From: Terriglobia bacterium
GTDB lineage: Bacteria > Acidobacteriota > Terriglobia > Acidiferrales > UBA7541
Assembly: GCA_020073485.1 (NCBI GenBank)
Contig: JAIQFB010000029.1
Span: 1 to 62,740, forward strand
Reading direction: 5' to 3'
DNA length: 62,740 bases
Shown here: positions 18,456 through 37,980 of the stretch, piece by piece
Position numbering within the stretch: position 1 is the first letter of the stretch
How the letters are laid out: each line of letters starts with the position of its first letter
The notes under the pieces: model-generated
What the model was told of the DNA's origin: nothing
The model's database searches: none
Seen by the model: the letters and a program-made list of their open reading frames with translations, nothing else
Position numbers and translations under genes: made by a program

Positions 18456-18463
18456 CGCGAGTG

Positions 18464-19466: not shown

Positions 19467-19486
19467 TTGCATCGGCGAGAAATATC

Positions 19487-20239: not shown

Positions 20240-20251
20240 GGTCTACCTTCC

Positions 20252-21419: not shown

Positions 21420-21422
21420 GCG

Positions 21423-21614: not shown

Positions 21615-21757
21615 GGGAACAGCCGCGAGTCTGGTCGCCAGTTCCGCCGAGGATTTTGCGTCGTGAAAATGATCCCACGCCAGAGACTTTACTCCGTCCT
21701 CCAGTGGCGCGGCCTGCAGAATGTTATTCGCGTGGTCGACGATGCGCGGGTCGAGAC

Positions 21758-22030
21758 TTACTGCGGCTGCTCCTCGGCAAACAACTCGGCGAACTTGGCC
21801 ACCGGGACCACGTAGTGAAGATTTAGAACGGCGTCATGCACTAGCGTGTCCCCAACGGCGGGATTTACGCCGTCGCGTTCGAGAATCCAGTTGTGCCGGG
21901 TGCCATTGTCGAGGATCAGCACGAGGCCCGCCGATGGCGACATCATTGCGCCGTGAGCCACAAGAGGGTGAACTGTTACGACGCGCGCCACTTCTACGGT
22001 ATGGGCTTTGACTCGAAATATTTTTGCCAT
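21758..22030 (-). CDS. Small hypothetical protein
   Basis: 90 residues, apparently beta-rich: VKAHTVEVARVVTVHPLVAH, LVLILDNGTRHNWILERDG, and DTLVHDAVLNLHYVVP. It resembles a small barrel or head-completion-type fold by pattern only. It starts six bases after the upstream stop. No known family recognised. Confidence 0.55.
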   Translation of the reverse strand: MAKIFRVKAHTVEVARVVTVHPLVAHGAMMSPSAGLVLILDNGTRHNWILERDGVNPAVGDTLVHDAVLNLHYVVPVAKFAELFAEEQPQ

Positions 22031-22036
22031 GGTGGT

Positions 22037-22609: not shown

Positions 22610-22670
22610 TTTATTTCCCTTTTCTGCGGCACAGTGGCCGCGACAAACTCATACTGAAAAAAGTGCTCGA

Positions 22671-22919
22671 TCAGAAACTGCCGCGATCAATCGTTGGCAC
22701 GCCTGACTTCCAATCCTCAAGTGCTTTTGCCAGTTCTGCTGCGACACCCTCGGATATGAGACAAACGGCTTCGGCGAGTTGGGCCTCGGTCAGAGTTGAA
22801 ATATCGACAGCCTTTTCAAATCGTGCGATGGCATCCTGAATTGTCTGAGCCGTGACTGTAGTCACGAGGCCGATCTGTTCAGGATTTAGGGCCGATGACC
22901 TGTTCCACTTGGTGCTCAT
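22671..22919 (-). CDS. Small helical hypothetical protein
   Basis: 82 residues. The start at 22919 is chosen because it follows the stop of the terminase-like gene by two bases and has AAAGGGAAAT upstream; the longer frame to 23081 is antisense-like. The sequence LVTTVTAQTIQDAIARFEKAV, then TEAQLAEAVCLISEGVAAEL suggests a two-helix protein. Not recognised. Confidence 0.5.
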   Translation of the reverse strand: MSTKWNRSSALNPEQIGLVTTVTAQTIQDAIARFEKAVDISTLTEAQLAEAVCLISEGVAAELAKALEDWKSGVPTIDRGSF

Positions 22920-22921
22920 TT

Positions 22922-23311
22922 TTATTTCCCTTTCGGCTTCACGCCAATTAATTTCGCTTCGATCTCGCGCAACTTCGCGCGTGCTGGACTCCCCGGCCTG
23001 CTCGCTTCGATGTCCACTCGCACATCGTTGAGAAGAATGTCGCGCTTTGATTTTCCGAAATTGTTGAATACCCGCAGGCATGCTTGAACGTTTTTATTTC
23101 TCAGCAACTGAAATGACATCGTCCGTGCGTTTTCCCGTGCGTTTTTGCCCGCGTTTCCGAAAGCCGCCTGCGTGGCGAAAACAGGATCGGCTGCACCGAA
23201 ATCAACAATGGATTGGCAATATGTCTGGGTCCACAATTGTTGCTGCACCGTCAGCGCACGAAATTCAACGGTCCTTGAAAGTGTGTCGAGTGACATGTAC
23301 TTGCGTGCCAT
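22922..23311 (-). CDS. Terminase-small-subunit-like protein (copy 2)
   Basis: 129 residues from the ATG at 23311 (MARKYMSLDTL). The middle (LTVQQQLWTQTYCQS, AAFGNAGKNARENARTMSFQLLRNKNVQACL) follows the pattern of terminase small subunits: an LTxQQ start, an AAxxAG helix-turn-helix, then LLxNxxVxAxL. In phages that protein recognises the pac/cos site and feeds DNA to the large terminase. It is similar in layout to the 175-residue protein at 23781-24308. No large terminase is encoded in the element. The assignment rests on pattern only; a general DNA-binding role is the main alternative. Confidence 0.45.
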   Translation of the reverse strand: MARKYMSLDTLSRTVEFRALTVQQQLWTQTYCQSIVDFGAADPVFATQAAFGNAGKNARENARTMSFQLLRNKNVQACLRVFNNFGKSKRDILLNDVRVDIEASRPGSPARAKLREIEAKLIGVKPKGK

Positions 23312-23535
23312 CGCTATCCCCGTGTTGCTCTCGGCTGAATGCTCCCGAAATAAGAGGCTCGAAGGCCCCATACTATAGGAGGATTAGTCAGAAACTTGTG
23401 AGTAGTTGGTGAGTGGATGCGTTTTTCGCGAGGATTGTGAGAGGTATGCCAATCAACTGATATTGTCAGTTGGTATCCTGTTTGCCTTATCCGCTGGAGC
23501 CGTCTGCGCGTTCAAAAATTCTATCTCCCACCATG

Positions 23536-23784
23536 TCATGTCTGGCAAAGACCGTTGCTCTCCACGCGCGACGGCGCAAATCGCTTGGTATCGCGGCTCC
23601 CATCCTCGGGCTCTTCGCGCACAGTCCGAGGCCGACCGGGTCCGCGCTTTGGCACCGATGATGTCGCGGGTTTTTGCGGGATTTTCCGCCGTTCCCCGGG
23701 TCCCTCAACCGCGACCAAATCTGCAGGCGCGGGCTCCGCAGGCGTCAATGATTGCGCCCAGTCAGGAATGTTGGGATCGCTCAC
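23536..23784 (-). CDS. Small proline-rich protein with AT-hook-like motif
   Basis: 82 residues, low-complexity and charged. PKRGPGRPRTV contains the GRP core of an AT-hook, which binds the minor groove of AT-rich DNA. Its start overlaps the stop of the upstream terminase-like gene by four bases (ATGA). The gap to the next gene downstream (23312-23535) holds TATAGT on the minus strand but no convincing full promoter. Confidence 0.45.
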   Translation of the reverse strand: MSDPNIPDWAQSLTPAEPAPADLVAVEGPGERRKIPQKPATSSVPKRGPGRPRTVREEPEDGSRDTKRFAPSRVESNGLCQT

Positions 23785-24308
23785 CGCGTCACCTCGACAT
23801 TCGCCAGTTGCACGTACTGCCCGTCAGCGGTGCGATATCCGCGCACGACACCACTGCTATCAACCAGCGGCATTGCACCTGTCGGGATGCGACTGTCGGT
23901 GGCGGGCCGGGGCGTTTCAACTTCGTCGTCGTCCTTGGCCGGAGCCAGTCCGAGAAGCAGCCGTTCCTTCTGCGCCAGAAAGCGTGAAGCGGCAACCGAT
24001 CCGGGCTCTGCATGTTTGAGGTTGGAGACCACCTCTTCGTAGAGCACGTCGAGCGGCGACTTGCCGAGGTAGACGTTCAACGCAGCCTTGACACTCGCCA
24101 CCTCGCGCACGGCGTAGCTGAAAATCTGAGCCTGCCGGGCATTCTTGCTGCCGTAGGCTGCCAGCACCGCCTTCGTAAAATCCTGAGTCTCGATCAGCGC
24201 GAGCAGGAAGGCTTGCTGCTTCGCGGTGCAGGCGGCAAACTCCGGGGACAGCTTCCACTGATTGAGCGGTATGAGTCCTTTGCTGCCCGGTTTGAGTACA
24301 TGTGCCAT
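23781..24308 (-). CDS. Terminase-small-subunit-like protein (copy 1), first gene of operon
   Basis: 175 residues. TAKQQAFLLALIETQDFTKAV, AAYGSKNARQAQIFSY and VREVASVKAALNVYLG follow the helix-turn-helix layout of small terminases, and SRFLAQKERLLLGL fits the following helices. Residues 45-75 align with the protein at 22922-23311, so the two look paralogous. The C-terminal 50 residues (PATDSRIPTGAMPLVD, VRGYRTADGQYV) are a separate small module. GAGAGGGG lies upstream of the ATG. This gene leads the ten-gene minus-strand operon. Confidence in the terminase name is modest. Confidence 0.45.
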   Translation of the reverse strand: MAHVLKPGSKGLIPLNQWKLSPEFAACTAKQQAFLLALIETQDFTKAVLAAYGSKNARQAQIFSYAVREVASVKAALNVYLGKSPLDVLYEEVVSNLKHAEPGSVAASRFLAQKERLLLGLAPAKDDDEVETPRPATDSRIPTGAMPLVDSSGVVRGYRTADGQYVQLANVEVTR

Positions 24309-24949
24309 CGAAAAATCACCCCTCTCTTTAGAGGCGATAGTCCGATTTGTTCATCCGCGATTCATCGAAGGATTCATTTTCGGCTCACGAAGGGGCTGGT
24401 CGGGCAGAGAAAACCGGACGCGGGCTGTCACCGACTGTGCCAGCTTTGTAACAGCCATTCATGACGACGTGTGTGCGGCGTTGCAGCGGCGTCACCGTGG
24501 TGTAACGGCGCAGGCCGGGGAGTCTCGGGGTTTCTGGGCCATGGTGGTGGATCGCCCGGGGCACCGGGGGACCGGGACTCGGGGTTCCGGCATTCTGTGG
24601 CGGGCTGGGACGGTAGGTACGCTTGGGTTTCTACTGCCTGCCGGGAATATGGGGAGGGAAAATTAACATCGCGTGAACAGAGGTGTGTGAGGGTAGGGAC
24701 TAAGCCTTGCGCCGCTGGCGACCCGTCGGGGATTTTTCAGTCCAAAATCGAATTCCAATGGGACCCCTAAATCCTGCGTTGCCAGCACTTTACATACTAA
24801 GCACATCGCGTCGCGGTCGAGAAATGAAGTTGGCCCTCGGGATCGCGCGCCGGGTGCGTGGGCGTATGGTGGGTGCGAAATTAGAGCGAAATTGGTACTT
24901 TACTATGTAACATTACTAATGTAAAGTGGTGTGCCTGGAGGCAAGTCCG
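24309..24949. other. Non-coding stretch between operon and recombinase, with palindrome
   Basis: No convincing gene in 640 bases. It separates the divergent minus-strand operon and the plus-strand recombinase. Near its right end, CTTTAC...GTAAAG (24898-24926) encloses ACATTACTAATGT (24910-24922), two nested inverted repeats just upstream of the recombinase ribosome site. They may form an operator. Confidence 0.4.
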
Positions 24950-25591
24950 ATGACGCCATCAATCGCCCGAAACGTGGTCACAATCCCGAAAGCCCGAGCG
25001 AAGCGAGTTCGCACGCGCATCAGCTACATGAGCGATGAACAACTCGAACGCTTTCTGCAGGCTGCGAAGGAATTTGGCCCGCGCGAGCACGCCATGTTTC
25101 TCTTCGCGGTGGCGCATGGCGCAAGGATCAGCGAGGTGTGCAACCTTCGAATATCCGATATCGATTTCAAAAACGAGCAGGTTCACATCGCGCGGTTGAA
25201 AGGCTCATTAGCTTCCACCCAATCGATGCTTCGCGTTAAAGGCAATGCATTGTTCAATGAGGTGGCCGCGTTCAAAGCATGGCTTGCCGTTCGCGAGCCG
25301 GACGCCGATAGCTACGTCTTCAATTCGCAGAAATCCACCCGGCTCGACCGTGTGTCCGCTTACAGGCTGTTCAAAAAGATCGCCAAGGCCGCCGGGCTGC
25401 CGGAGACTCTACAGAATCCGCACACCCTCAAACATACCAGCGCAATGCGCCTCGTCCACGGTGGTGCCAATGCGTTCTTGATCCGGCAGGCACTCGGGCA
25501 CAGGTCGTTCAATTCGACGCTGGCCTACGTCAACCCGTCCGATGCCGATGCCTCAGCTGCCATCCAAAAGGCTTTCTCGCAAGCCTTCTAA
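24950..25591 (+). CDS. Short tyrosine recombinase (catalytic domain)
   Basis: 213 residues from the ATG at 24950, which has TGGAGGC upstream. It contains only a short SAM-like lead and the catalytic domain: the first arginine in GARISEVCNLRISDID, HTLKHTSAMRL, ALGHRSFNSTLAYVN with the nucleophilic tyrosine. The second box reads H-x-x-K where most family members have H-x-x-R. Some phage-type recombinases share this change. No N-terminal arm-binding domain is present, so it may resolve or invert DNA with short sites. It lies in the middle of the element, away from either end. Confidence 0.8.
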   Translation: MTPSIARNVVTIPKARAKRVRTRISYMSDEQLERFLQAAKEFGPREHAMFLFAVAHGARISEVCNLRISDIDFKNEQVHIARLKGSLASTQSMLRVKGNALFNEVAAFKAWLAVREPDADSYVFNSQKSTRLDRVSAYRLFKKIAKAAGLPETLQNPHTLKHTSAMRLVHGGANAFLIRQALGHRSFNSTLAYVNPSDADASAAIQKAFSQAF

Positions 25592-25620
25592 CGTACAATA
25601 CAGTCGTATTGTTACATTCT

Positions 25621-25655
25621 GGCTCTTTTGACGGTTCCAACCCGTTGAAAGAGCC
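25621..25655 (+). terminator. Long hairpin after the recombinase
   Basis: GGCTCTTTTGACGG pairs with CCGTTGAAAGAGCC through 14 base pairs, counting two G-T pairs, around a 7-base loop. It starts 29 bases after the recombinase stop. Only a weak T-rich run follows, so termination may be partial. Confidence 0.5.
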
Positions 25656-26658
25656 GGAGTTGTTTTCAGCCCCAGAAATGCATCATTACTTTTCGGGGCG
25701 AATTCGACCCCGCGCACCCCATGCTTTTGTCTTTGGACTCGCGCTGACCGCGTTCGGTACTCTTGACCCCGCTTCCAAACGACCCGCCAACGCTGACCAC
25801 TGCCGTCTCGTACCGTCAGTATCTATAGCCCAGCATGCTCCATTCCTCCAACGGACAGGGAACACTCACCAGAATGCCTGTTCTTGCCGTGTAGCAGCCA
25901 ATATGAGCGTTCTTGCAGGTCGGGATATGTTTTTTCACAAGGCGAAACAAACTCGAACGGACTCTTGTGCTTTTGATGGGGGGACGCGCCGAGCACCTAA
26001 TCCACCTGCTGCTGCCAGCGAACCAAAGCGGCTCCGCGCCAAGCGCGTGCTACCCCATCAGTCGCTGGCAGTCATCCCAAGCGCATCATGCGCACCAAGT
26101 ACTGACCGACACACGCCTGAAATCATCGCTACCACGAAAGGTACACGCAACCCCAGCAGGCCCGGCAGTAGCCTTATCATCCGGCAGCACAGTCTTAACG
26201 ATCACTCAGACATTCAGTCGTCTCAACTCTGCCTCTACCAAGTGTCTCCTGACGGGTAGTAGTCTCACAGCTTGACCAACCTACCGGGCGTGGTGGGATT
26301 TCGCTTCGGAGCGCGGCCGCGAAAGGCTACTGAGGCCCCCTGCGCCCATGCATGTTCGCTGCGCGCAGTCCCGACCGCGTGTCGCAATGGCCAAATTCCC
26401 ACATTCCGAGGAGACCGGTGGTTTCAATGGGTCGATGCAACACTTGCTCAAAGGCTTCTCATAAACGTTGCCTATTCGTTCTGATTCTAATCACCCTCGC
26501 AGACCACATGGCTGGCCAAAGTAACACTGGCTAATTAAGTTCTCACTGACACATAACGTAGATATCCATACTTTAATAGAAGTTGTATGGTATCTTTTGT
26601 TCGGCTTGTTTCGGTCCCTCACTTTTGCGAGATAGATGTCAACTAAACGGAGACCAAT
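25656..26658. other. 1 kb stretch without a convincing gene
   Basis: Open frames occur on the plus strand (one of 216 codons from 25609), but their composition is serine/proline/histidine-rich, they have no ribosome site, and they overlap the recombinase hairpin. I see no recognisable domain, tRNA or repeat. It may be decayed sequence. Confidence 0.4.
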
Positions 26659-28038
26659 ATGACGGATACTAGCTCGATCCGAACATATGATATCGACGTT
26701 GTTGAGAAAGAAAGACGCTTCAAAGTGTTGAACTCTTTTCGGATTGCCTGTCTCTGCATTTTATTTTTAGCCATTACAAGCAGCGCACACGCACAATTGT
26801 CACGAGTCCGGGTCCCTGCTCCATCTCCTGCCGCGCCGTCAGCCTTTCCGACACCTCCTGCCGGGTCGAAGTGTGACGCGACTCCCGAAAGTGCGGCTCC
26901 CTCAAATCTGATAGTCACATACATCGGGTCCTCCCAGATCGGCCTTGCCTGGGCCGCTCCAGCAGCCACGCCAAGCGGCTGCACACTCGACCACTATGAG
27001 ATTAAATGTACACATCTCACAGCCGATCGAGGCACGCCTGATTGCACTCCCAGCCTGCCGTTGAAATTCACAACTACGAGCTATAACGATACTGGATTGG
27101 AGTCCCAGAATTGGTACACCTATTCGGTTGTCGCGGTTTATATCGACTCAAATAAAGCACCTTTTCCGTCTTCGCCCTCGCAAAAAGTGTTCATAGAGAC
27201 TGCCCACTTCACCTGCTTACTTATCCCGCTGAGGCCAGCGTGCATGAATTTCGGATCGGGCAAAGACACGAATATAAATGCATTCTGGCAAACAAACGGT
27301 TCATTTACGTTTTTGGGTCAAGTCAAGTCCATTTACAATGGTGCTTCCGGTTCCACGACCGTCTCAGCTGATCTGGGGACTCTCAATTTTGGCAACGGAA
27401 TGCAGGTGACGGTTACGACGAATGCACAAGCAGGACCGTCGGGAGTTAACCTGGTCAGTACGGGCACGGTTCCAACTTTGTCCTCGAATGGCGCCGGGCA
27501 AGCGACCCAAAACATGCTATTCGGAGGAACGTTTCTGATTTCTCAGCTCTATCCCCTACTTGCCGTCGGAGCAAGCAAACTGAACACCGCCGGGGGGCTC
27601 GGCTTTTCTGCGGATTTGATAGCGAAGGAGGGAGTTGATATACAGAACTTCGCATCCGGGACCAATACCAATGTTACTTCTCCCCCGTTTCATGGCAGTG
27701 GTCAACTCACAGCTTTCCTGCAGTACAACTCCATCAATTTGGCTCCTAACTCACAAGGTTTTGCTGGTTCGCTCTTCGCCGGAGGCAGCTATGGTTATAG
27801 TTATACGTCTCCTGCTTACCTGAGGAATTATGGTTTCGCAAGCAAACAAAATAACGGTATCGGACAAATTGCAGTCGGTATTGTGATAAATACTGTGGCC
27901 AGGATTTCATTTTCCCGTGGGTTGGGTCCGTCGCAAAGCTATGTTGATAGCACAACTATGGTCAAAACGAGTGTAAACAACTTCAAAGCCTGGTCGATTG
28001 GCATAACCTATCAAAGTCCTACGTCAGCAAGTAAGTAA
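26659..28038 (+). CDS. Exported Fn3-domain protein, beta-rich C-terminus
   Basis: 459 residues. A long n-region precedes the hydrophobic core IACLCILFLAITSSAHA, a signal peptide cut near residue 45. A proline-rich linker follows (about 48-70). Residues about 80-180 form a fibronectin type III-like domain (APSNLIVTYIGSSQIGLAW). The rest (about 200-459) is glycine/serine/asparagine-rich with alternating residues and an aromatic-ended last strand (AWSIGITYQS), which hints at a beta-barrel or surface domain. Its base composition is lower in GC than chromosomal neighbours. No role is known; a cell-surface product on a mobile element could act in adhesion or exclusion. Confidence 0.65.
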   Translation: MTDTSSIRTYDIDVVEKERRFKVLNSFRIACLCILFLAITSSAHAQLSRVRVPAPSPAAPSAFPTPPAGSKCDATPESAAPSNLIVTYIGSSQIGLAWAAPAATPSGCTLDHYEIKCTHLTADRGTPDCTPSLPLKFTTTSYNDTGLESQNWYTYSVVAVYIDSNKAPFPSSPSQKVFIETAHFTCLLIPLRPACMNFGSGKDTNINAFWQTNGSFTFLGQVKSIYNGASGSTTVSADLGTLNFGNGMQVTVTTNAQAGPSGVNLVSTGTVPTLSSNGAGQATQNMLFGGTFLISQLYPLLAVGASKLNTAGGLGFSADLIAKEGVDIQNFASGTNTNVTSPPFHGSGQLTAFLQYNSINLAPNSQGFAGSLFAGGSYGYSYTSPAYLRNYGFASKQNNGIGQIAVGIVINTVARISFSRGLGPSQSYVDSTTMVKTSVNNFKAWSIGITYQSPTSASK

Positions 28039-28189
28039 TAAAGGTACGCCCAAGCCCATGAATCTCCTTTGCAGTAGCAGCCATCCCGCCATGCTTCACT
28101 GCGCGCGGAAGCCACTCGGCAATGATCCGACGCACTAGCACCACGGGCTCGGCTCCATCTTCACACTCAATCTCGCCGAATCCCGCCAT
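28019..28189 (-). CDS. Possible small protein overlapping the cold-shock gene end
   Basis: 56 residues from an ATG at 28189 with GAGGGG nine bases upstream. It overlaps the 3' ends of both neighbours. The sequence VVLVRRIIAEWLPRAVKHGG looks helical. Protein-like, but the length and overlaps make it uncertain. Confidence 0.3.
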   Translation of the reverse strand: MAGFGEIECEDGAEPVVLVRRIIAEWLPRAVKHGGMAATAKEIHGLGRTFITYLLT

Positions 28190-28382
28190 CGTTGCGACGC
28201 CCCTCATTCGACTCCGTTTCAAACTGCACCCACATGCCGGGCATCAGAAATCGACGCCGCCATGCGGGAGTGTGCTCGATATCGGAAAAATGGACAAAGC
28301 AATCGGGCAGTGTTGGATCGTCGGTCGGCAGGATGAAGCCGAATCCGCGTGCTCTGTCAAATTTTATGCAGGTGCCTCTCAT
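28167..28382 (-). CDS. Cold-shock-domain-like protein
   Basis: 71 residues starting at 28382, where GGAGAGGGG precedes the ATG; the longer frame to 28496 lacks this. MRGTCIKFDRARGFGFILP is the first strand pair with an RNP1-like motif, and DCFVHFSDIE matches RNP2 of cold-shock domains (usual form VFVHFSAI). It would be a single-stranded nucleic-acid chaperone of phage or plasmid type. The C-terminus (ESNEGRRNDGG) is short of a full fifth strand. It clusters with two small minus-strand genes between the Fn3 gene and the excisionase. Confidence 0.65.
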   Translation of the reverse strand: MRGTCIKFDRARGFGFILPTDDPTLPDCFVHFSDIEHTPAWRRRFLMPGMWVQFETESNEGRRNDGGIRRD

Positions 28383-28456
28383 GGGCCACCCCTCTCCCAA
28401 AACTGCATCCGACTGCACGAAACTGGGTGGCGGATGCCCACCTGTGCTGCCACTTC

Positions 28457-28654
28457 TCAATAGTCTTCGACGCGGTATCCATGCAGCCACAGCCACCGCC
28501 CGGCGGCCAGTTGCTCGGCCTGTGTTGCCATCGGGTGCCGCAAAATAAATTTCATCTTGTCCTCACCGTCACGCCACAACGTCAGCCGCTGTAGATATTT
28601 TTGCCGGGCAGTCAAAGGCCGGAGGCGCGGGCCGGGTTGTTTCGTCGCGGTCAT
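28457..28654 (-). CDS. Small hypothetical protein
   Basis: 65 residues, basic N-terminus (RLRPLTARQKYLQRL) then WRDGEDKMKFILRHPMATQAEQ and WLWLHGYRVEDY. The pattern is protein-like and the gene lies 74 bases upstream of the cold-shock gene in the same direction. No function known. Confidence 0.45.
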   Translation of the reverse strand: MTATKQPGPRLRPLTARQKYLQRLTLWRDGEDKMKFILRHPMATQAEQLAAGRWLWLHGYRVEDY

Positions 28655-28734
28655 GACCCATCCAAATGCTCACAGAGCGCTCACATATATAGGACGAATA
28701 GTCTTAAACTTCAGGCCGCGCGGATGGTAGCGGC

Positions 28735-29181
28735 TTACAACTTCTCAACAGTGTGTGAATCGGACAAAACCACAAGAACTTCCTGTTCGTTCCGTTGTTC
28801 GACATACGCGAATACCTCCGACCGCTTTATTTGGGCCCTATAAACGCGGCCATCAGGCATACCAGATAAGTGTCCGAATTTCGTAAACCTCTCGGCGACT
28901 TCATACGATAGAGTCCACGCAATGTTTCTTATCGCCCGCGCTTGGGCTTGCTCGTTTCCCCAAGCCTCCACCTCTGACCGAAGAAACCGAAGATACTTGC
29001 CAACCTTGCGGTGCGGGATGGGTGTGCGCTGCGTGCCCCGGAATCTGGTCCATTCGTAGATTGAACTGGCGGGCACTTTCAAAAGAGCCGCCGTATCCGC
29101 GACGGTTAGAACCTCAGTTACGCCTGAGGCAGGCAGGGTGAGTTTCGTATCGGTTGTCGTGCTGGGCATCTTGCGTTGCAT
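28735..29181 (-). CDS. Excisionase-like HTH_17 protein with extra C-terminal domain
   Basis: 148 residues. Residues 22-80 form a MerR-like/excisionase HTH: LTVADTAALLKVPASSIYEW, then RKVGKYLRFLRSEVEAW. Such proteins act as recombination directionality factors that bend attachment DNA so the integrase can excise. A second segment (about 90-148, IAWTLSYEVAERFTKFGHL, VFAYVEQRNEQEVLVVL) is not usual for simple Xis proteins. AGGAGAAGAAC precedes the ATG. The gene is divergent from the zinc-finger gene at 29273, less than 800 bases from the integrase. Confidence 0.75.
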   Translation of the reverse strand: MQRKMPSTTTDTKLTLPASGVTEVLTVADTAALLKVPASSIYEWTRFRGTQRTPIPHRKVGKYLRFLRSEVEAWGNEQAQARAIRNIAWTLSYEVAERFTKFGHLSGMPDGRVYRAQIKRSEVFAYVEQRNEQEVLVVLSDSHTVEKL

Positions 29182-29224
29182 GTTCTTCTCCTAATATTGT
29201 CGAATCATGTCGAGATAATACGAG

Positions 29225-29253
29225 TTGACTGTGTCGCATGCACTTGATATATT
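29225..29253 (+). promoter_or_regulatory. Sigma-70 promoter for the integrase-side genes
   Basis: TTGACT (29225-29230), a 17-base spacer and TATATT (29248-29253). Transcription would start near 29260, just before the ATG at 29273, giving a short leader without a Shine-Dalgarno site. It lies in the 91-base region between the divergent excisionase-like gene and the zinc-finger gene, well placed for control by the HTH protein. Confidence 0.7.
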
Positions 29254-29272
29254 CCATTTGTACGCGACAAAC

Positions 29273-29911
29273 ATGCGGCACTCTGACACAAGTTGGGATG
29301 AACGGCAGAAACGCCTCGCAGAGGCCAAGACCTTGGCGGATTTCGCTAATTTGGAGCCCAGCGATGTCGGAGCCTTCCGCAAGGACCATCCAGATTTTTT
29401 CCCAGCCGCGTGGTGGGACTATCGACCGACGACTCTAACCAAAAGACCGACTCTCGAAAAACCGACTCCCAAAATGCAGTGGGAGATCGTGCAGCAGATG
29501 GTGCGGGACACTTGGCTGAGGCAATTCCGACTTCCCCCTTTTTGGTCCACATGGTTGCTGACATCTGTGTTTGACCCTGAAGAGATGGGATGGGATGAAG
29601 AACATCGCCCACCTTTCGTGACTGGGCTGCATGTTCTTGATATTGATTCTTACCCGTACCATGAAGCCGTTCAGTGGTTGGTCGGGCAGAGTTGGCGAGT
29701 AAAACAGTGCGAGCAGTGCGGCAAATGTTTCATCGCTGAAGCGTCACAGCGACGGTTCTGCAGCAATGATGGAGACACGTCATGTTTTTGGGCACATAGG
29801 AAGGCGGGCAGGAAAAACAACGCGGACGAAGTGAATAAAGACCGACGCAATAATTACGACCCAAAAGCACGACGGCGTAGGTATCTCCGCGATAAGAGGC
29901 GCAAGGCATAG
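29273..29911 (+). CDS. Hypothetical protein with C-terminal zinc finger
   Basis: 212 residues from the ATG at 29273. The upstream TTG at 29225 falls inside the -35 box, so it is rejected as a start. The N-terminal 130 residues are acidic and tryptophan-rich with no known domain. The C-terminal part has CEQCGKCFIAEASQRRFC and a further cysteine, a CGNR/treble-clef-like finger, then a very basic tail (KARRRRYLRDKRRK). It is likely a nucleic-acid-binding protein. The integrase gene starts 35 bases downstream and probably shares its transcript. Confidence 0.6.
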   Translation: MRHSDTSWDERQKRLAEAKTLADFANLEPSDVGAFRKDHPDFFPAAWWDYRPTTLTKRPTLEKPTPKMQWEIVQQMVRDTWLRQFRLPPFWSTWLLTSVFDPEEMGWDEEHRPPFVTGLHVLDIDSYPYHEAVQWLVGQSWRVKQCEQCGKCFIAEASQRRFCSNDGDTSCFWAHRKAGRKNNADEVNKDRRNNYDPKARRRRYLRDKRRKA

Positions 29912-29946
29912 ACGGCGTATCAATTGTTTTTTTGGAGGGCGAGCCA

Positions 29947-31191
29947 ATGGCCAATCCCAATCAGAAAGAAAACCAATACACTCTGAAAGCGGGCGTCTAC
30001 ATTTATCTTCGCGGTAATTTTTGGATGCTTCGGTATCGCATCCCAGTCGAAGAGAATGGGCAGCGCAAACTCAAGGACCAGTACAAGAAACTGGCGCGGC
30101 GCGAGGAATACAATTCGCCGCGCTCGGTCGCACATCTGGCAAAGCCTTATCTCAATTCCCTGCCCGACAAGCTCACGACTGCTACTACGCAATCCGTTTC
30201 CAACTTTATCGAGCACACCTACTTCCTTTACGCTGAACAAAAATCCGCACTCGCGCCTAGCACGATTTTTGGATATAGGCACATCTTCTCGAAGCACCTG
30301 AAGCACCGTCTGGAAGCAACTAGGCTCTGCGACCTCCGAACGGCCACCGGGCAGCAACTGTTGAATCGGATCGCTGAGGAAACGGGCCTGTCGCACACTT
30401 CACTGAAGCACATCAAATGGTTTCTCGTGGGTGCGCTCAATTACGCCAAGCAAGTGGACGCGCTGCAGTGTGATGGAAATCCAATGGAGTACACGGAAGT
30501 TCCCGAGGGAGCCGCGACCGGACAGACGAAAGCATATTCACTCAAAGAGATTAGCGCCATGATCGCGGCGCTAGAAGATGACCCAATTGCGAGCGCGGTC
30601 ATAGCAACGGCGGCGTTCACGGGCCTTCGTCGGTCAGAGTTACGAGGGTTGCGTTGGTCTGACTTCCGCGATGGTCAGTTTTTCATTACGCACACTGTTT
30701 GGAATACGAGCGCGCGGGACAAAACGAAAACACCGGATGCAAAGGCTCCTGTGCCTGTCCTGAAATCACTGGCAAAGATACTCGAAGCGCATCGGGGTGA
30801 CGCGAACGAAGCCGGATACATTTTCGCAGGCTCGAAAAACGGACGGCCCCTCAATCTCGCCAACCTTGCCCGTCGCGTCATAGTTCCCAAACTAAATGCA
30901 GCTGGTGTACAATGTTGGGCAGGTTGGCATGGGTTTCGTCGTGGTTTGGCTACAAATCTTTTCGAACTTGGTGAAGATGAAGCGACGATCCAAGCTATCC
31001 TGCGGCATGCTGACGTAAAGACCACCCGACGCCACTACATCAAGAAAAACGTGGTGTCAAAGGAATCAAAGCAGGCAATGAACCGGCTCGCACAAGTCTT
31101 CAAAAAGATGCAAAAGCCTTCGCGTCGCCGTTCAGCTTTGGGTACAAACGTGGGTACGCCGAGAAATAGAAAGCCTCAGAAAAGCCAATAA
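29947..31191 (+). CDS. Site-specific tyrosine integrase
   Basis: 414 residues from the ATG at 29947 with GGAGGG ten bases upstream. An N-terminal arm/SAM-like core-binding region (about 60-180) precedes the catalytic domain: TAAFTGLRRSELRGLRW (Arg I), HGFRRGLATN (H-x-x-R), LRHADVKTTRRHYIKK (His and Tyr nucleophile). All catalytic residues are present, so it should be active. The gene reads toward attR and stops 12 bases before the intact tRNA-His. Its last codons overlap the paired GGGTAC repeats. It should catalyse integration into the anticodon-loop region of tRNA-His. Confidence 0.92.
   Translation: MANPNQKENQYTLKAGVYIYLRGNFWMLRYRIPVEENGQRKLKDQYKKLARREEYNSPRSVAHLAKPYLNSLPDKLTTATTQSVSNFIEHTYFLYAEQKSALAPSTIFGYRHIFSKHLKHRLEATRLCDLRTATGQQLLNRIAEETGLSHTSLKHIKWFLVGALNYAKQVDALQCDGNPMEYTEVPEGAATGQTKAYSLKEISAMIAALEDDPIASAVIATAAFTGLRRSELRGLRWSDFRDGQFFITHTVWNTSARDKTKTPDAKAPVPVLKSLAKILEAHRGDANEAGYIFAGSKNGRPLNLANLARRVIVPKLNAAGVQCWAGWHGFRRGLATNLFELGEDEATIQAILRHADVKTTRRHYIKKNVVSKESKQAMNRLAQVFKKMQKPSRRRSALGTNVGTPRNRKPQKSQ
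31140..31157 (+). repeat. Paired GGGTAC repeats near attR (candidate arm sites)
   Basis: GGGTAC at 31140-31145 and 31152-31157, period 12, inside the 3' end of the integrase gene and about 50 bases from attR. They match the pair near attL. A small GCCAAT/ATTGGC hairpin (31184-31200) follows around the integrase stop codon. Confidence 0.4.
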
Positions 31192-31203
31192 AAAATTGGC
31201 GAT

Positions 31204-31280
31204 GGTGAGCGTAGCTCAGCTGGTAGAGCATCGGTCTGTGGCACCGAGGGTCGCGGGTTCAAACCCCGTCGCTCACCCCA
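31204..31280 (+). tRNA. tRNA-His(GTG)
   Basis: A full cloverleaf of 77 bases with encoded CCA. G-1 pairs with C73, the hallmark of tRNA-His. Acceptor GTGAGCG/CGCTCAC, D stem GCTC/GAGC, anticodon stem TCGGT/ACCGA with loop CTGTGGC (anticodon GTG), and T arm GCGGG-TTCAAAC-CCCGT. The first 39 bases come from the mobile element and the last 38 from the sequence to the right. No convincing promoter is seen between the integrase stop and the tRNA. Confidence 0.96.
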
Positions 31281-31294
31281 AATTTTCCTAGCAC

Positions 31295-31545
31295 TTAGAT
31301 TGGCTTTGCTTCCCTGTCAGTTGCACGGGGGTTGCACAACGTTTCGAGCAGTTTCATGGCTTGGAGCATGCTTTCTGGCGCGTCTTTGATGCAGTGGCGT
31401 TCTGTAGTGCGCACGCTCGAATGGCGCAATAACCCTTTGGCTGCAAGGGAGTTCGAGAGGTCTGCAACCACTGTCCCAACCCCCCGCCTCGGCGCATACC
31501 AGCCATGCCATTTCCAGACCGCCACGACGCGTACGACTACTTCCC
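31295..31545 (-). pseudogene. Remnant of a second tyrosine integrase (C-terminal end)
   Basis: The minus strand just downstream of the tRNA encodes HGWYAPRRGVGTVVADL, then GLLRHSSVRTTERHCIKDAPE, the last part of a tyrosine-integrase catalytic domain with H-x-x-R and the second His box. The nucleophilic tyrosine, expected in RHYIK, is a cysteine here. The upstream part of the gene is missing or garbled beyond about 31545. Two GTTGCAC copies with an 11-base period (31320-31337) overlap its 3' end, like the paired repeats in the intact integrase. It is a relic of an earlier insertion at the same tRNA. The rest of the gap up to 31960 holds nothing recognised. Confidence 0.8.
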
Positions 31546-31960
31546 TAAGCGAACCGTAGCTAGGGCGAGCGCCTGTTGCGTGGTGTTGCATGGGAATAGA
31601 TGCCGGAAATAGGGATTTGCAAAGGCCAAGAACGAATATTCCACAATAATTTTTCTGCGACCAACATTGTGGCGCATCTGCTGTAAGCATACCTTCGAAA
31701 TACCTTATTTCACGGCCTTGCACACTAATTTCGTAAACAAATTCTATCTTTCCTAATGGAGCTATTACGCTCCTGGTCGGGTACTGACAGATAGTTGATT
31801 ATGAAGCCCACGGGAAGGGATACTCTGAGGTTTATCATGAACCTCGCAAACTAACGCAATTCCCAGCAATGGTTATGGTATACTTTGGACAATCTATACC
31901 CTTTAAATTCCTTCGGCCAGCGGTACGCTCCGACTCCTGGAGATAACGACGAAGGTTCTT

Positions 31961-32275
31961 ATGTCTGTCCCGATATCTGAAAAAAAGCGTCTCTTGAAAC
32001 GACACCGAGCACACGTACCACGCAAGGTGACAAAGTCCTCGTTTGTAGACCCTCCACAAGATTTGGCATCTCTTGTTAGGGGAATGTATGGACGAGTGGC
32101 TCGTAACCTTCATCTCGATCCCTCGTATGTCAGCCGCGTCGCGCGAGGAGAACGTCAATCCGAGTTAGTTGATGCCTCACTGAGGCGTGAGCTAAATAAG
32201 ATCGTACGGCATGCCATCAAACAGCATGACGGCACTGCTCGGACCTCAGGCCGCGTAAAAGCCCGTAAGGGATAG
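31961..32275 (+). CDS. Small HTH DNA-binding protein
   Basis: 104 residues. The centre, MYGRVARNLHLDPSYVSRVARGERQS, is an XRE-like helix-turn-helix followed by a short amphipathic helix. The N- and C-termini are strongly basic (KKRLLKRHR, KARKG). I recall similar short regulators in Acidobacteriota, but no target is known. The start follows a purine-rich stretch. It stands alone between the integrase remnant and the two-component pair. Confidence 0.65.
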   Translation: MSVPISEKKRLLKRHRAHVPRKVTKSSFVDPPQDLASLVRGMYGRVARNLHLDPSYVSRVARGERQSELVDASLRRELNKIVRHAIKQHDGTARTSGRVKARKG

Positions 32276-32362
32276 CCCTTACGTAATCTGCGGTATTGTT
32301 AGATGGCTGCCCTTCCAATACGATTTCCGTTATCTTCTATTCTCGTTATTTTGGAATTACAT

Positions 32363-32512
32363 ATGAGCAAACGCGAGAATCATTTCCGCAGCAAGAAGAC
32401 CCCAATTGAGCAAATGTTCCGCGAAATCGTCAGGCGCGAAATGACACCAAATGAGCGGCATGTTCTTTTACCGAAGCGGAAGAAAAGAAAAAAGATTCGA
32501 AAACCCATGTAA
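32363..32512 (+). CDS. Possible small basic protein
   Basis: 49 residues from an ATG at 32363; a longer frame starts at 32303. KTPIEQMFREIVRREMTPNER is a plausible helix and the tail is lysine/arginine-rich. It lies 87 bases after the HTH gene in the same direction. Low confidence because of its size and lack of a clear ribosome site. Confidence 0.3.
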   Translation: MSKRENHFRSKKTPIEQMFREIVRREMTPNERHVLLPKRKKRKKIRKPM

Positions 32513-32589
32513 TTCGTCGGTGATCGCGGTATGCCCCAACGGTTCGCATGACTTGCGATGCCGCGGGATTGGAATTGTATCGCCGGCCT

Positions 32590-33255
32590 TCAGCTTCCTT
32601 GTGTCGTGGCTATTCCGTGACGCAGTGAATAGTGAATGATCTCCGCCACGGAATGGAGGCCAAGCTTGTGCATGATATTGGATCGGTGTGTCTCGACAGT
32701 CCTGATCGTGATTTCCAATTGCGCAGCGATCTCTTTATTCGTCCTCCCCTCGCTCAGAAGGCGGATGATTTCAATTTCGCGAGGCCCAACTTGAGCCTCT
32801 GCCCGGTGTCCTTCTTGATGCTTGCTACTCGAATTGAGAAATCCCTCTAGCACGATTTCGGATACTTTCGGGGTCAGGAAACGCTTACCGCCCGCAACGG
32901 CCCTGACGGCCTTCGGGAGACAGTCCGTAAGATCGGATTTCAAAACGTATCCTCGTGCTCCGGCTTCCAGTGCACGGCGCACCATCTGGTCCGACTCGTC
33001 CATCGTGAGCACAAGAACTTTGATATCCGGAGCGGCCTCGCGGATTCGGCGCGTGACTTCGATTCCATCCAAGCTGGGAATGCCAATATCGACGATGGCT
33101 ATATCCGGTTTTAGCCTTACTGCCTTTTTTACCGCCTCAAGGCCATTCGCCGCCTCGCCGACAACCCTCCAACCGCGTTGTGAGTTGAGGACTTCCCGTG
33201 CTCCTCGCCGCACCAACGCATGATCGTCAACAATCAGAATACCCAGTTTTCTCAT
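32590..33255 (-). CDS. NarL/FixJ-family response regulator
   Basis: 221 residues from the ATG at 33255, chosen because the receiver domain begins at once (MRKLGILIVDDHALVRRG) and GAGGCGCGGAC lies upstream. The phosphoacceptor Asp is in DIAIVDIGIPSLDG, the switch Thr in VLVLTMDE, and the Lys in YVLKSD. The C-terminal LuxR-type HTH has GPREIEIIRLLSEGRTNKEIA and TVETHRSNIMHKLGLHS. It is divergent from the HisKA_3-type histidine kinase at 33974, the class that pairs with NarL-type regulators, so the two are probably cognate. Confidence 0.93.
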   Translation of the reverse strand: MRKLGILIVDDHALVRRGAREVLNSQRGWRVVGEAANGLEAVKKAVRLKPDIAIVDIGIPSLDGIEVTRRIREAAPDIKVLVLTMDESDQMVRRALEAGARGYVLKSDLTDCLPKAVRAVAGGKRFLTPKVSEIVLEGFLNSSSKHQEGHRAEAQVGPREIEIIRLLSEGRTNKEIAAQLEITIRTVETHRSNIMHKLGLHSVAEIIHYSLRHGIATTQGS

Positions 33256-33973
33256 GTCCGCGCCTCTTCGAGAGTTATTGTCACGGGCACCCTCTTGCCT
33301 TGACTTAAAGCTCAGGATCAAGCCACCCACCAATCAGCCCAGCTGCACTGAGGACGGAGAGGACGACGAGGCGATAGTTGCAAAAAGCAACACAGTGTAG
33401 ACCGACCACGCTCATCGCAGCCCCAACAGACTGTGACCATACGGGACTCAGGTGGACGGTAATTTATCCGATATCGTACCCTTGAAAAGAGAGAAATAGA
33501 GATTCAAATCAACCTTTCTTATGCACAGAGCCACATACATTGTTATATGGATGAATCGAGCTGGCTGATTGGCAACACGGGGCGAGAAGCCCCTTCCGGG
33601 CAAGATGGGTTGAAAATAGTGTCACTTTGCATGTCATCTGGTTGAGCGCTCCTGTCTTGACCAAATATGTTGCAAATATACTATATATCTATGTAAGAAT
33701 GCGTATTGAATTATGCTTCCTGACCAGGAAGCACTTAAAACAACTCACGGATTGAGACGCACCCGTAAGGGGCGGCAACGTGACTTCAGATTTTCAACCA
33801 CCGAGGCTGACAGGCCCACTATTTCAAGGCGAAACACCGTTCTTTCATAGCAAGCGAAACTTAGTCTTCCTTCACGCCAAAAGTGTCAACCAGGCAATTT
33901 GTCTAACCTGGCGGGTCGACCCCCATGGATTCTTTCTGAGCACTTGGAGAAGCAACCCTTTAGGAGGAGCGCG
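33256..33973. promoter_or_regulatory. 718-base divergent control region with perfect palindrome
   Basis: No gene is seen between the divergent regulator and kinase genes. The region is AT-richer than the flanks, with a TATACTATATATC stretch near 33678. TGCTTCCTGACCAGGAAGCA (33714-33733) is a perfect inverted repeat with a 2-base centre. Its position suits an operator for the NarL-type regulator, but NarL-family sites are diverse, so this is inference. Confidence 0.5.
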
Positions 33974-36562
33974 ATGACCATGCTCAGTGGATGGCTGTTT
34001 CCCAACGGACTGATGCCCCATGGATTCTGCTATCAGTGGAAGCCAGCTCTCATTTGGCTGCACGCCATCTCCGACACGTTGATTGCTCTTGCTTATTTTT
34101 CGATTCCGATTGCGCTGATCTACTTTGTTCGAAAAAGGCGAGGTATTCCATTTGGTTGGATGTTCGTCTGTTTTGGCGTGTTCATCACCGCATGCGGCGC
34201 CACACATTTAATGGATGTTTGGACTCTATGGATTCCCTCCTATTGGTTGTCAGCCGGGGTCAAGGTAATTACGGTCATGGCTTCAGTACCCACGGCGATA
34301 TTTCTCGTCCGGATTGTACCGGCGGCATTGAGCCTACCCAGTCCCGATGATATGAGAAAAACAATCGAACAGCTGAAACAGCAACAGGCCACTTTGAAAA
34401 ATAGCGAGGAGCGCTTTCGGCAAATGGCCGAAAACATCAAAGAGATATTCTGGACGATGGACCCGGAAACGAAAGCCGCTACGTATGCAAGTCCGGCGTT
34501 TGAAAAAATCTGTGAACTCCCCCTGAATTCGCTCTATTCAAATCCAACCTCTTACTTCGAGTTAATACATCCGGAAGACCGGCAACGTGTCATAGAGGGA
34601 CTTGGAAAACTGATTAGGACGAATTGCTTTGATGAGGAATTTCGCATTGTCTGCCCAAGTGGGACCATTAAGTGGTTAAGAAGTATCGGATCTGTTGCTG
34701 AAGATTCGATGGGCAAAGTCCTAACACTTATGGGAACGGCTCAGGAGATTACCGCTCGTAAAAAAATGGAAATTCAATTGCGAGAAAATGAGGACCGGTA
34801 TCGCGACCTGGTTGAGAATTCCACGGATCTGATCTGCACTTACAATTTACAGGGTCGTCTTCTCTCTCTGAACGAGCTGCCAGCCAAACTTCTCGGATAT
34901 TCTCGGGAGGAACTTTTGAAAATCCCTATGCGGAACATTCTTCTGCCAGAGGCACGCGCTCAGTTTGATGAGTCTCTCCTGGCCATCCAAAGAGATGGTT
35001 TCGTGAAGGGTTCAATGGTCGTTGTCACAAAGACTGGAGAACAGAGAATCTGGGAATACCACAATACACTTCGAACGGAGGGTGTGACCGTCCCTGTTGT
35101 CCGGGGCATGGCGCATGACGTCACCGACCGAAAGCTTCTTGAGAGGGCGCTCAGACTTTCGGAAGAAAAATTTGCGAAGGCATTTCACTCGTCACCCGTC
35201 GAGATCGTTATTTCCACGCTTCAGGAAGATCAGCTTTTGGATGTCAACGCTGCTTTTGAGCGAAACAGTGGCTTCACTCGGGATGAGGTCGTCGGTCATT
35301 CGTCCATAGAGCTTGGGAGGTGGAACAATCCCGATGATAGAGCGCTGTTAGTTGAGGACATTGGGAAGAACGGCAGAGTGCAAAACCGGGAGATCAGCTT
35401 TCGAACCAAGTCTGGCAAAACAAGAGTCACACTCTACTCAGCGGAGCAAATCAAGATAGGCGACAAGCAATGTCTCCTCGCTGTCTGCGAAGACATAACT
35501 CAGCGGAAGCAGATTGAAGAGGCGCTTCGGATCTCGGAGGAAACATTCTCGAAAGCGTTCCGCAGCAGCCCCAGCATCATTTCGATCTGCACACTTGAAG
35601 AAGGAATATTCGTGGAAGTCAATGAGAGCTTCGAGAGACAGACTGGTTATGCACGGCATGAGCTTCTTGGTCGTACCGCACTGGAGGCGGGACTCTGGAT
35701 TGATCCGCGGGAGGCGGAGACACTTGCAATTGAGATAGAGAAACAGGGATATGTGCGGAACCAAGAAGTCCACTTTCGATCCAAGTCCGGCCAAATCGCG
35801 ATAATGCAGCTTTCCGTCGAATTGGTTGAACTCCGTGGAGAGAAATGTCTGCTAACTGTCGGCCTGGACATTACCGAGCGAAAAAGAGCTGAAGAGGACC
35901 TGCGACGTATTTCGGCGCAGCTTCTTCGCTCGCAGGACGATGAGCGGAGGAGAATCGCGCAGGACTTGCACGACTCCACGGGGCAAAACCTCGTCGCACT
36001 GGCAACGATGGTTGGTCAACTCAATCGTTTGGGTCACTTGGATGGACGCAAATCGCGGAGGCTTCTCTCCGAATGTAAGGCACTGGCGGACCGGTGTATC
36101 CATGAGGTTCGCACTCTTTCCTACACGTTATATCCAGCTGTGTTGGACGGAATCGGTCTAGTGGGGGCAATTCGAGACTATGTGAAGGGGTTCAGTAAAC
36201 GAAGTGGAATCCAAGTGAATTTGGAAATGTCATCGAGTCTCGGACGGATGGCACGAGATATCGAGCTGGCCTTATTCAGAGTAGTTCAAGAGGGCCTCAC
36301 TAACATCCAGCGCCATTCGGGAAGTCAGATAGCCAAGATAAGGATTGAGCGCGACTCGTTTCTCGCAATGGAAATTAGCGACTTTGGCCACGGTATCGTT
36401 GCAAACCAAGGAGACAAAACCGCCCCTGGTTTCAAATTTGGCGTGGGCATTTCCAGCATGCAGGAACGAGTGAAACTGATTGGCGGCCGGCTCGGGATTG
36501 ATTCCAACAGTCACGGTACAAAGATACTCGTGACGATACCTCTGGGAGAGGCGCGAACATAG
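33974..36562 (+). CDS. Ethylene-receptor-like multi-PAS sensor histidine kinase
   Basis: 862 residues from the ATG at 33974 with AGGAGGAGCGCG directly upstream. Residues about 24-125 form three membrane helices that resemble the ethylene-binding domain of plant ETR1: ISDTLIALAYFSIP and ACGATHLMDVWT. Asp34, Tyr41, Ile44, Pro45, Cys74 and His78 sit at a constant offset of nine from ETR1 Asp25, Tyr32, Ile35, Pro36, Cys65 and His69; the last two bind Cu(I). The ETR1 N-terminal dimer cysteines are absent. Four PAS domains follow (about 145-255, 270-390, 395-510, 515-635), then a HisKA_3 dimerisation region (RRRIAQDLHDSTGQN) and an ATPase domain (ISDFGHGIV, GVGISSMQERV). It is divergent from a NarL-type regulator. 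A general redox or copper sensor is the alternative to ethylene. Confidence 0.88.
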   Translation: MTMLSGWLFPNGLMPHGFCYQWKPALIWLHAISDTLIALAYFSIPIALIYFVRKRRGIPFGWMFVCFGVFITACGATHLMDVWTLWIPSYWLSAGVKVITVMASVPTAIFLVRIVPAALSLPSPDDMRKTIEQLKQQQATLKNSEERFRQMAENIKEIFWTMDPETKAATYASPAFEKICELPLNSLYSNPTSYFELIHPEDRQRVIEGLGKLIRTNCFDEEFRIVCPSGTIKWLRSIGSVAEDSMGKVLTLMGTAQEITARKKMEIQLRENEDRYRDLVENSTDLICTYNLQGRLLSLNELPAKLLGYSREELLKIPMRNILLPEARAQFDESLLAIQRDGFVKGSMVVVTKTGEQRIWEYHNTLRTEGVTVPVVRGMAHDVTDRKLLERALRLSEEKFAKAFHSSPVEIVISTLQEDQLLDVNAAFERNSGFTRDEVVGHSSIELGRWNNPDDRALLVEDIGKNGRVQNREISFRTKSGKTRVTLYSAEQIKIGDKQCLLAVCEDITQRKQIEEALRISEETFSKAFRSSPSIISICTLEEGIFVEVNESFERQTGYARHELLGRTALEAGLWIDPREAETLAIEIEKQGYVRNQEVHFRSKSGQIAIMQLSVELVELRGEKCLLTVGLDITERKRAEEDLRRISAQLLRSQDDERRRIAQDLHDSTGQNLVALATMVGQLNRLGHLDGRKSRRLLSECKALADRCIHEVRTLSYTLYPAVLDGIGLVGAIRDYVKGFSKRSGIQVNLEMSSSLGRMARDIELALFRVVQEGLTNIQRHSGSQIAKIRIERDSFLAMEISDFGHGIVANQGDKTAPGFKFGVGISSMQERVKLIGGRLGIDSNSHGTKILVTIPLGEART

Positions 36563-36710
36563 AAATACGTCGCGCCCTGAAAGCTGGCAGGCCGAGCTTT
36601 GGTCGATGCTAAACGTAGGAGCGCATTAGTGCGGGCAGTTTTTCCGCCAGCGGGCGGCGAGTCGAACGACTCGGCGGACATGGCTTCGGCCAGTTATGAA
36701 ACACCGGATT

Positions 36711-36750
36711 CCCAACGCTCAAGTTTTTTAGCGTTGGGCTTTTTTATTTT
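36711..36750 (+). terminator. Rho-independent terminator after the kinase
   Basis: CCCAACGCT (36711-36719) pairs with AGCGTTGGG (36730-36738 region) and is followed by a long T-rich run to 36750. It lies about 150 bases after the kinase stop. A separate palindrome GAGTCGAACGACTC is at about 36660. Confidence 0.85.
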
Positions 36751-36816
36751 GTTTCAAACCAAAAGGGATTTCATTAAACGGCTGAAAACAGTCAATCCGA
36801 CGCCAGACAGCCCAGT

Positions 36817-36978: not shown

Positions 36979-37899
36979 ATGACCAAGTTTCGTGTACTCA
37001 TTGTGGCCGTATTGTTGGCCATGCCGGCGTTGGCTGCGGCGCAGGAAGCAAAGCAGGCGAATTTGGAAAACACGCTTTGGGATGTGGAACAGCATTGGCT
37101 GTGTACCGGGCCGTATGAAAAACCGTACCCGGAATGCGTAAAATCCAGGGCCGAGTACTGGGTGCCTGGATTTTACGAGGTCCAGTCCGCGGGGACGATT
37201 CGGAATAAGGAAGAAATGGTGGCCTCGCAGTCGGCCATGGATCCGGTGCATGCCGTGCACCCGTTTCCCGCCGATTTCCGGCTGATTGCCGTTTACGGGG
37301 AGGTCGCGCTCGGGACCGATCACACCGATTTTCAGTCTCCTGTGGCCGGTGGAAAGATGGCGTTCACCTCAGGCAGCCATTGCCTGCGCGTGTTCGTCAA
37401 GCAAAACGGAGAGTGGCGTCCTGCTGCGGCAGCTCTGGTGCCGATCATCCCGCCCACCGAAGCCAGTGCCAAGACCAGCGGCGCCCGCAGCACAAAAAGT
37501 CCCGACGAGAAATTGGAAAAGGAACTCGCGGAGATCGATCAAAAGTGGATGGACGCGGTGCGGACCACGAAGATCGATTATTTGAAACAGATGTACGCCG
37601 AGAAGTGGTTTGAGATCCTCGGATGGAACCCGACCGTGGTCCTGACCAAACCGGCGGCGCTGGAACGCGTCGCAAAGCTCAATTTCAAGCCGGGCGAAGG
37701 AGTTTTCGCGGACCAGTTCAAGTTAATGTCCGTATACGGGGACGTCGCTCTGGCGGCGGATCGCAGAATCCGGAAGGTGATGGATGCCAGCGGCGAGCTT
37801 GAGAGCACGCCGCACCGCGGCTTGCTGGTGTTCGTGAAACAGAATGGCCAATGGAGAGTGGCCGCGGACGCGGTCGTTCCCACGATGGTCACGGAATAG
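36979..37899 (+). CDS. Exported protein with tandem SnoaL-like (DUF4440) domains
   Basis: 306 residues. A signal peptide (VLIVAVLLAMPALAAA) is cut near residue 22. Two similar cone-shaped SnoaL/NTF2-like domains follow: residues about 27-155 with an insert, and 175-300. They share the pattern LIAVYGEVALGTDHTDF versus LMSVYGDVALAADRRI and the ending VFVKQNGEWRPAA versus VFVKQNGQWRVAADA. Single-domain DUF4440 proteins are common; the internal duplication is notable. CGGAGGAACGC precedes the ATG. It is the first chromosomal gene after the old island. Substrate unknown. Confidence 0.75.
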   Translation: MTKFRVLIVAVLLAMPALAAAQEAKQANLENTLWDVEQHWLCTGPYEKPYPECVKSRAEYWVPGFYEVQSAGTIRNKEEMVASQSAMDPVHAVHPFPADFRLIAVYGEVALGTDHTDFQSPVAGGKMAFTSGSHCLRVFVKQNGEWRPAAAALVPIIPPTEASAKTSGARSTKSPDEKLEKELAEIDQKWMDAVRTTKIDYLKQMYAEKWFEILGWNPTVVLTKPAALERVAKLNFKPGEGVFADQFKLMSVYGDVALAADRRIRKVMDASGELESTPHRGLLVFVKQNGQWRVAADAVVPTMVTE

Positions 37900-37907
37900 G
37901 TTACATT

Positions 37908-37980
37908 GGCACGGGCTTCAGCCTGTGCGGTTTTAATTTTTGCGGCACCAAACGACCGCACGGGCTGAAGAGATCATGCC
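37908..37980. repeat. Inverted intergenic repeat pair (GGGCTTCAGCC type)
   Basis: GCACGGGCTTCAGCCTGTGC (37909-37928) is itself a hairpin. A second copy in inverted orientation (ACCGCACGGGCTGAAG and on) lies at about 37955-37980, so the two can also pair with each other. The same core recurs near 40.26 kb. Confidence 0.6.

Follow-up and report, generated by a model that had tools for sequence, protein, structure and literature searches.

Ethylene is a gas of plants and soil, and to our knowledge few bacterial ethylene receptors have been tested so far. Such receptors are already known in bacteria; what is unusual about the kinase described here is its wiring and its setting. AzoEtr1 of Azospirillum brasilense is presented in PMC11819568 as a plasmid-borne protein of 525 aa with one PAS domain, whose residues 1-130 bind ethylene and whose gene, located on ABSP7_p1, overlaps that of AzoRR-etr1, a bare 135-aa receiver. 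SynEtr1 (slr1212) of Synechocystis likewise has an ethylene-binding domain on a histidine kinase that signals to a transcription regulator (slr1213), and it contains a light-sensing GAF domain (PMC7700396 and PMC11819568). Plant receptors are described as signalling mainly independently of their kinase activity to a Ser/Thr kinase (PMC11819568). Seven residues are reported to be required for ethylene binding (PMC11819568, PMC6682694), and Asp25, Cys65 and His69 to form the copper site of ETR1 (PMC12643061). Putative ethylene receptors with varied outputs have been described in proteobacteria and cyanobacteria (PMC7700396). In the open-access literature we found no report of bacterial ethylene receptors in Acidobacteria, nor of an ETR1_N domain combined with a HisKA_3/NarL architecture or of a tRNA-island setting.

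We analyzed a stretch of 62,740 nucleotides from a Terriglobia bacterium, referred to as the window, which encodes a sensor histidine kinase with an ETR1_N domain next to a NarL-type regulator (Table 1). The four PAS stretches and the HisKA_3 transmitter that a first-pass annotation of this DNA had assigned to the kinase were recovered by Pfam, with both HisKA_3 and HATPase_c over their cut-offs, and an AGGAGG lies six bases upstream of the ATG at 33974. The histidine-kinase output with a partner regulator, a trait of the characterized bacterial receptors, is thus represented by the domains themselves and by the lineage of the adjacent regulator. The window kinase has in common with AzoEtr1 an ETR1_N domain with the seven ligand residues and an adjacent regulator gene, but it carries four PAS domains and a HisKA_3 transmitter and sits on a tRNA-integrated segment, and its regulator is, unlike AzoRR-etr1, a DNA-binding protein of the NarL type encoded divergently. 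In contrast to SynEtr1, Pfam gave no GAF match in the window kinase. The three-helix domain of Arabidopsis ETR1 bears the same ligand residues, nine positions earlier than in the window kinase, but ETR1 has neither the PAS array nor the NarL output.

Table 1. Positions of the features of the kinase locus and of the inserted segments within the window.
Feature	Position	Strand	Basis or remark
Displaced tRNA-His 5' half, left end of neighbouring segment	15753..15798	+	96% over 46 nt
Tyrosine integrase of left segment, open frame	29932..31191	+	
Intact tRNA-His(GTG), junction of two inserted segments	31205..31280	+	
Inserted segment, ~5.5 kb, holds regulator and kinase	31281..36816		GC ~0.50 over 31.5-36 kb
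Frame with tyrosine-integrase remnant	31295..31723	-	44% over 43 aa to intact integrase
NarL/LuxR-type response regulator, REC + GerE, probable partner	32590..33255	-	Pfam; ATG at 33255
Divergent intergenic region, 718 bp	33256..33973		
Perfect inverted repeat, 9-bp arms, candidate operator	33714-33733		
Sensor histidine kinase, 862 aa	33974..36562	+	ORF + Pfam: ETR1_N, four PAS, HisKA_3, HATPase_c
ETR1_N domain, probably three-helix, residues 26-121	34049..34336	+	D34, Y41, I44, P45, I71, C74, H78, K97
Transmitter, HisKA_3 + HATPase_c, from ~residue 644	35903..36559	+	
Displaced tRNA-His 3' half, right end of kinase-bearing segment	36817..36865	+	86% over 49 nt

The closest homologue of the window ETR1_N domain was found at locus L096 of the Acidobacteria gp2 isolate AA87 (G074, of the window's family); L015, with identical matches for kinase and regulator, is a duplicate of this locus and was dropped. 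It shares the ETR1_N domain (71% identical), PAS domains, a HisKA_3 transmitter and an adjacent NarL-type regulator (60%), but has one extra PAS (by eye), and its transmitter is only 50% identical to that of the window. Its kinase and regulator genes run in one direction and overlap, whereas the window pair is divergent; its neighbours are ffh- and rplS-like (by eye), and no tRNA was found in the 17.8-kb stretch.

The first-pass annotation had aligned the N-terminus to plant ETR1, and the match of the window kinase to the ETR1_N profile PF25487 (E 1.3e-37; 128 bits, cut-off 27) puts the domain inside the ethylene-binding family. The offset of nine that had been noted between D34, Y41, I44, P45, C74 and H78 and ETR1 D25, Y32, I35, P36, C65 and H69 was reproduced against a reference that we take to be the ETR1 sequence. 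The seventh ligand residue, I62 of ETR1, is also there as I71 of the window kinase, completing the set of seven ethylene-binding residues, of which Y32, I35, P36 and I62 are presumably the four required in addition to the copper site. The alignment, claimed to be free of gaps, is so through helix 2, but the loop before helix 3 is shorter by three residues, after which ETR1 K91 corresponds to K97 at an offset of six. Judged by its sequence the kinase is a true bacterial member of the ethylene-receptor family, and since its membrane domain matches ETR1 at all seven important residues it probably senses ethylene. Loss of the Cys/His pair in all close orthologues, which would speak against this assignment, was not seen: the closest homologue, L096, keeps both and its ligand residue set is complete. 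The window domain also aligns without gaps to the ETR1_N domain of the Azospirillum plasmid ABSP7_p1 (50% over 110 residues). This plasmid of A. brasilense Sp7 has a single ETR1_N place, with a frame of 511 residues from the start of the match; as the plasmid is the same and the frame fits the 525 residues of AzoEtr1, we take the match to be AzoEtr1.

Across 45 ETR1_N rows the joint conservation of the seven ligand columns exceeded that of randomly drawn seven-column sets (p ~0.0007), with the P45 column alone not above random (47%, rank 56 of 94). A model of the sensor obtained with AF2 from two sequences showed long helices at residues 16-56, 62-84 and 90-118 at a poor pLDDT of 55.5. When searched against solved structures the whole kinase matched 24 chains, each only from residue 138 on and none of them a relative of the sensor; the sensor alone gave two unrelated chains with E values of 0.36-0.38.

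The ligand site is by no means constant in the family. In a residue table of 48 ETR1_N rows, three of them fragments, all seven residues were present in 18 rows including the window, and at least one was missing in the other 30, which include the three fragments. The Cys persists in 40 of the 48 rows and the His in 36, so that the family includes members without the site; as only 18 rows keep all seven residues, the ETR1_N fold alone is no proof of ethylene sensing. Among the 48 ETR1_N reading frames, some of them fragmentary or truncated at the end of a contig, the outputs were HisKA in 27, GGDEF in 10 and HisKA_3 in two, the latter being the window and L096/L015. Several of the ETR1_N-GGDEF fusions (L088, L089, L110, L111, L114, L116, L119 and others; L044, a duplicate of L119, was omitted) have changed ligand residues, which suggests other ligands or lost sensing. 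At L090 (G011:C184) the ETR1_N domain extends across two overlapping frames, one match containing a TAG, which reflects either a broken gene or a sequencing frameshift.

With the window's own genome included in each count, ETR1_N was found in 11 of 61 genomes in the first search for relatives (11 of 37 in the window's family, 0 of 24 outside), in 22 of 89 genomes of this family and in 18 of 396 genomes sampled across the phylum, 17 of them over the cut-off. L048 is a match below the cut-off that our own profile did not recover. ETR1_N was further detected on 19 of 72,556 plasmids, seven of which are from Azospirillum; 50,697 phage records gave no match. A second ETR1_N kinase is encoded in the source genome (L001/L080, G000:C45:224381), with PAS and a HisKA transmitter and all seven residues; by eye, it is preceded by a receiver-GGDEF protein. 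In a sensor tree without the three fragments, whose bootstrap had not settled, the domain of this second kinase groups with those of the same-genus genomes G005 and G002 (with L086 at 100/93, with both at 89/66), and the window domain groups with L096 (97/97). Five other assemblies of the genus (71-97% complete) gave only partial matches to the full-length window kinase, one of them none at E 1e-40.

The NarL-type regulator had been proposed as the partner of the kinase. At E 1e-30, 87 of the 89 family genomes carry a NarL-type relative of it, and identity to the twelve closest is 60-76%. At the 13 closest regulator loci, twelve of which were fetched and the thirteenth of which is L096, a relative of the kinase core lies directly beside the regulator in ten cases; no transmitter relative was found beside the regulator at L141, L142 and L146. 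Because the regulator and transmitter lineages are adjacent in 10 of 13 loci, it is probable that kinase and regulator form a signalling pair, as proposed. The window genes are divergent and 718 bases apart, while the pairs of the relatives form one operon. A search for a shared regulator-binding motif performed no better than one shuffled control. We also scanned the surroundings of the ETR1_N genes (40 stretches of at most 13 kb plus 8 of ~3 kb, some shortened by the edge of a contig) and found a whole-length relative of the regulator only in the window and at L096/L015; at L081, L094, L107 and L118 the match was confined to receiver domains.

Transmitter and regulator differ from the sensor in their closest relatives. 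Seven transmitters, 58-71% identical to that of the window and with adjacent regulators of 61-76% identity, belong to kinases whose inputs are PAS only (L135, L139, L143, L144), MHYT (L136, L138) or MEDS (L140), and none of the seven has a Pfam match to ETR1_N. The transmitters of L096 and L145 are more distant (50% and 48% identical, respectively); that of L137 is split across two frames and was therefore left out of the transmitter tree. In the regulator tree the window sequence falls into a group that contains neither L096 nor L145 (99/99), and in the transmitter tree it is placed next to L136 (94/91, not starred). Holding the window together with L096 and L145 was rejected by AU tests (p-AU 0.003 for the regulator and 0.006 for the transmitter), in which the group was named only after the trees had been seen. 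Since transmitter and regulator group with MHYT, MEDS or PAS-only kinases and the sensor with L096, sensor and transmitter have different nearest kin in these trees and the modules have been reshuffled. Two histories would produce this pattern: ETR1_N and PAS may have been fused to the transmitter lineage seen here, or they may be old and have been replaced several times in the relatives. The identities between window and L096 (PAS 61%, transmitter 50%) were considered as evidence for a recent swap-in of sensor and PAS, an argument dismissed because 4 of 8 other pairs likewise show higher identity in PAS than in the transmitter, so that identity alone does not give the direction of exchange. 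In the HisKA_3 kinase L145 (G072:C424, 3566-4726), inspection by eye shows an ETR1_N-like start of roughly 30 residues that leads straight into PAS; Pfam gave no ETR1_N match here, with PAS, transmitter and regulator kept, and the ETR1_N region seems to have been shortened, either by a genuine deletion or through an error in the assembly.

The tRNA-derived repeats reported around the kinase are real: an intact tRNA-His is accompanied by displaced 5' and 3' halves. In the same-genus genome G005 (G005:C134, L120) the flanks of the window (left up to position 15798, right from 36817 on) are joined at a single intact tRNA-His without any insert. Given this uninterrupted site, the kinase-bearing segment was acquired by insertion, and the simplest reading is that two segments flank one restored tRNA-His gene. 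The description of the locus as a mobile island is therefore borne out for its acquisition but not for its present transferability, as only a short remnant of an integrase, and no intact one, was found in the insert; Pfam gave no match in the remnant's frame. The integrase frame of the left segment ends 13 bases before the tRNA-His, and in G001 its end is kept beside the tRNA-His of that genome (91% over 458 bases), beyond which lie different genes. GC content is 0.59-0.66 left of 15 kb, 0.50 over 31.5-36 kb and 0.57-0.61 at 37.5-57 kb; since a stretch at 58.5-60 kb also has 0.50, low GC alone is no proof of insertion. Beyond the kinase/regulator pair and small ORFs we saw no likely target genes in the insert.

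We consider it likely that the kinase senses ethylene in a Cu(I)-dependent manner and acts via the NarL-type regulator. According to this model the three-helix domain would, as a dimer, hold Cu(I) via Cys74 and His78 (with Asp34) and bind ethylene; the signal would pass through the four PAS domains, which may carry other signals, to the HisKA_3 transmitter, which would phosphorylate the regulator encoded alongside. Ethylene would be expected to lower kinase activity, in analogy to SynEtr1, for which the AzoEtr1 paper points to indirect evidence of such an effect, and to AzoEtr1 itself, for which that paper predicts it (PMC11819568). The pair arrived on the segment integrated at tRNA-His, and its transmitter and regulator are of the lineage with MHYT, MEDS or PAS-only inputs in related genomes. 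A copper-ATPase scored over the cut-off in the source genome, which says little as 13 of 14 control genomes have one too. No ACC deaminase over the cut-off was found in the source genome, the one weak match below it having its counterpart in 6 of the 14 controls.

The domain could also bind Cu(I) and yet respond to copper itself or to another small ligand, such as CO or other olefins, with ethylene being incidental. This would agree with the MHYT domains on the closest transmitter relative, L136, and on L138, given that an MHYT regulator responding to CO has been reported (PMC11347149), and with the many family members in which ligand residues are changed (the fragments being counted among the 30 of 48 rows). 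The window kinase itself, however, has the full seven-residue set on a domain half identical to that of a reported ethylene binder, and we regard a different ligand as rather unlikely. More improbable still is that the ETR1_N domain merely anchors the protein, being kept for dimerization and membrane placement, with the input coming from the PAS domains. Four PAS stretches do lie between sensor and transmitter, and L145 has kept PAS, transmitter and regulator with only ~30 residues of the ETR1_N region (by eye), but ligand residues that are jointly conserved above random columns and complete in the closest homologue speak against a mere anchor.

The remnant state of the insert's integrase and the drift of the displaced tRNA half to 86% would be expected if the kinase were a decaying passenger on an old island, unexpressed or functionless. 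All 862 codons are open, however, behind a strong ribosome-binding site, the HisKA_3 and HATPase_c domains score over their cut-offs and the frame of the regulator is likewise uninterrupted, which makes such decay very improbable indeed.

As an ethylene sensor the kinase would offer a direct test case for ethylene sensing in Acidobacteria, and the DNA-binding nature of its regulator would allow the targets to be mapped. The exchange of input domains suggests how ethylene sensing could attach to an existing regulon. A broader proposal, which we put forward tentatively and hold to be somewhat doubtful, is that within this family of Acidobacteria one HisKA_3-NarL module is passed among genomes, sometimes at tRNA sites, with interchangeable gas or metal inputs (ETR1_N for ethylene, MHYT, MEDS). 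If this were true, ethylene sensing could join an existing regulon as a plug-in by one insertion.

Further observations were made at tRNA genes and in the surroundings of the locus. At L136 (G104:C41, 6024-6711) the MHYT-HisKA_3/NarL pair also has a tRNA (Gly) nearby and a duplicated half of a tRNA (98% over 43 nt); by eye, a fragment resembling an integrase lies in between, and a second MHYT-like frame starts at 12529. In the window, the left segment (15799-31204, ~15.4 kb) contains a second ORF of the phage-integrase family (24926-25591), a DUF499-like ORF (16068-18158) and an fn3 protein (26659-28038). A short dispersed element at ~37898-37970 has many similar copies among the matches listed, both in the source genome and in genomes of the same genus.
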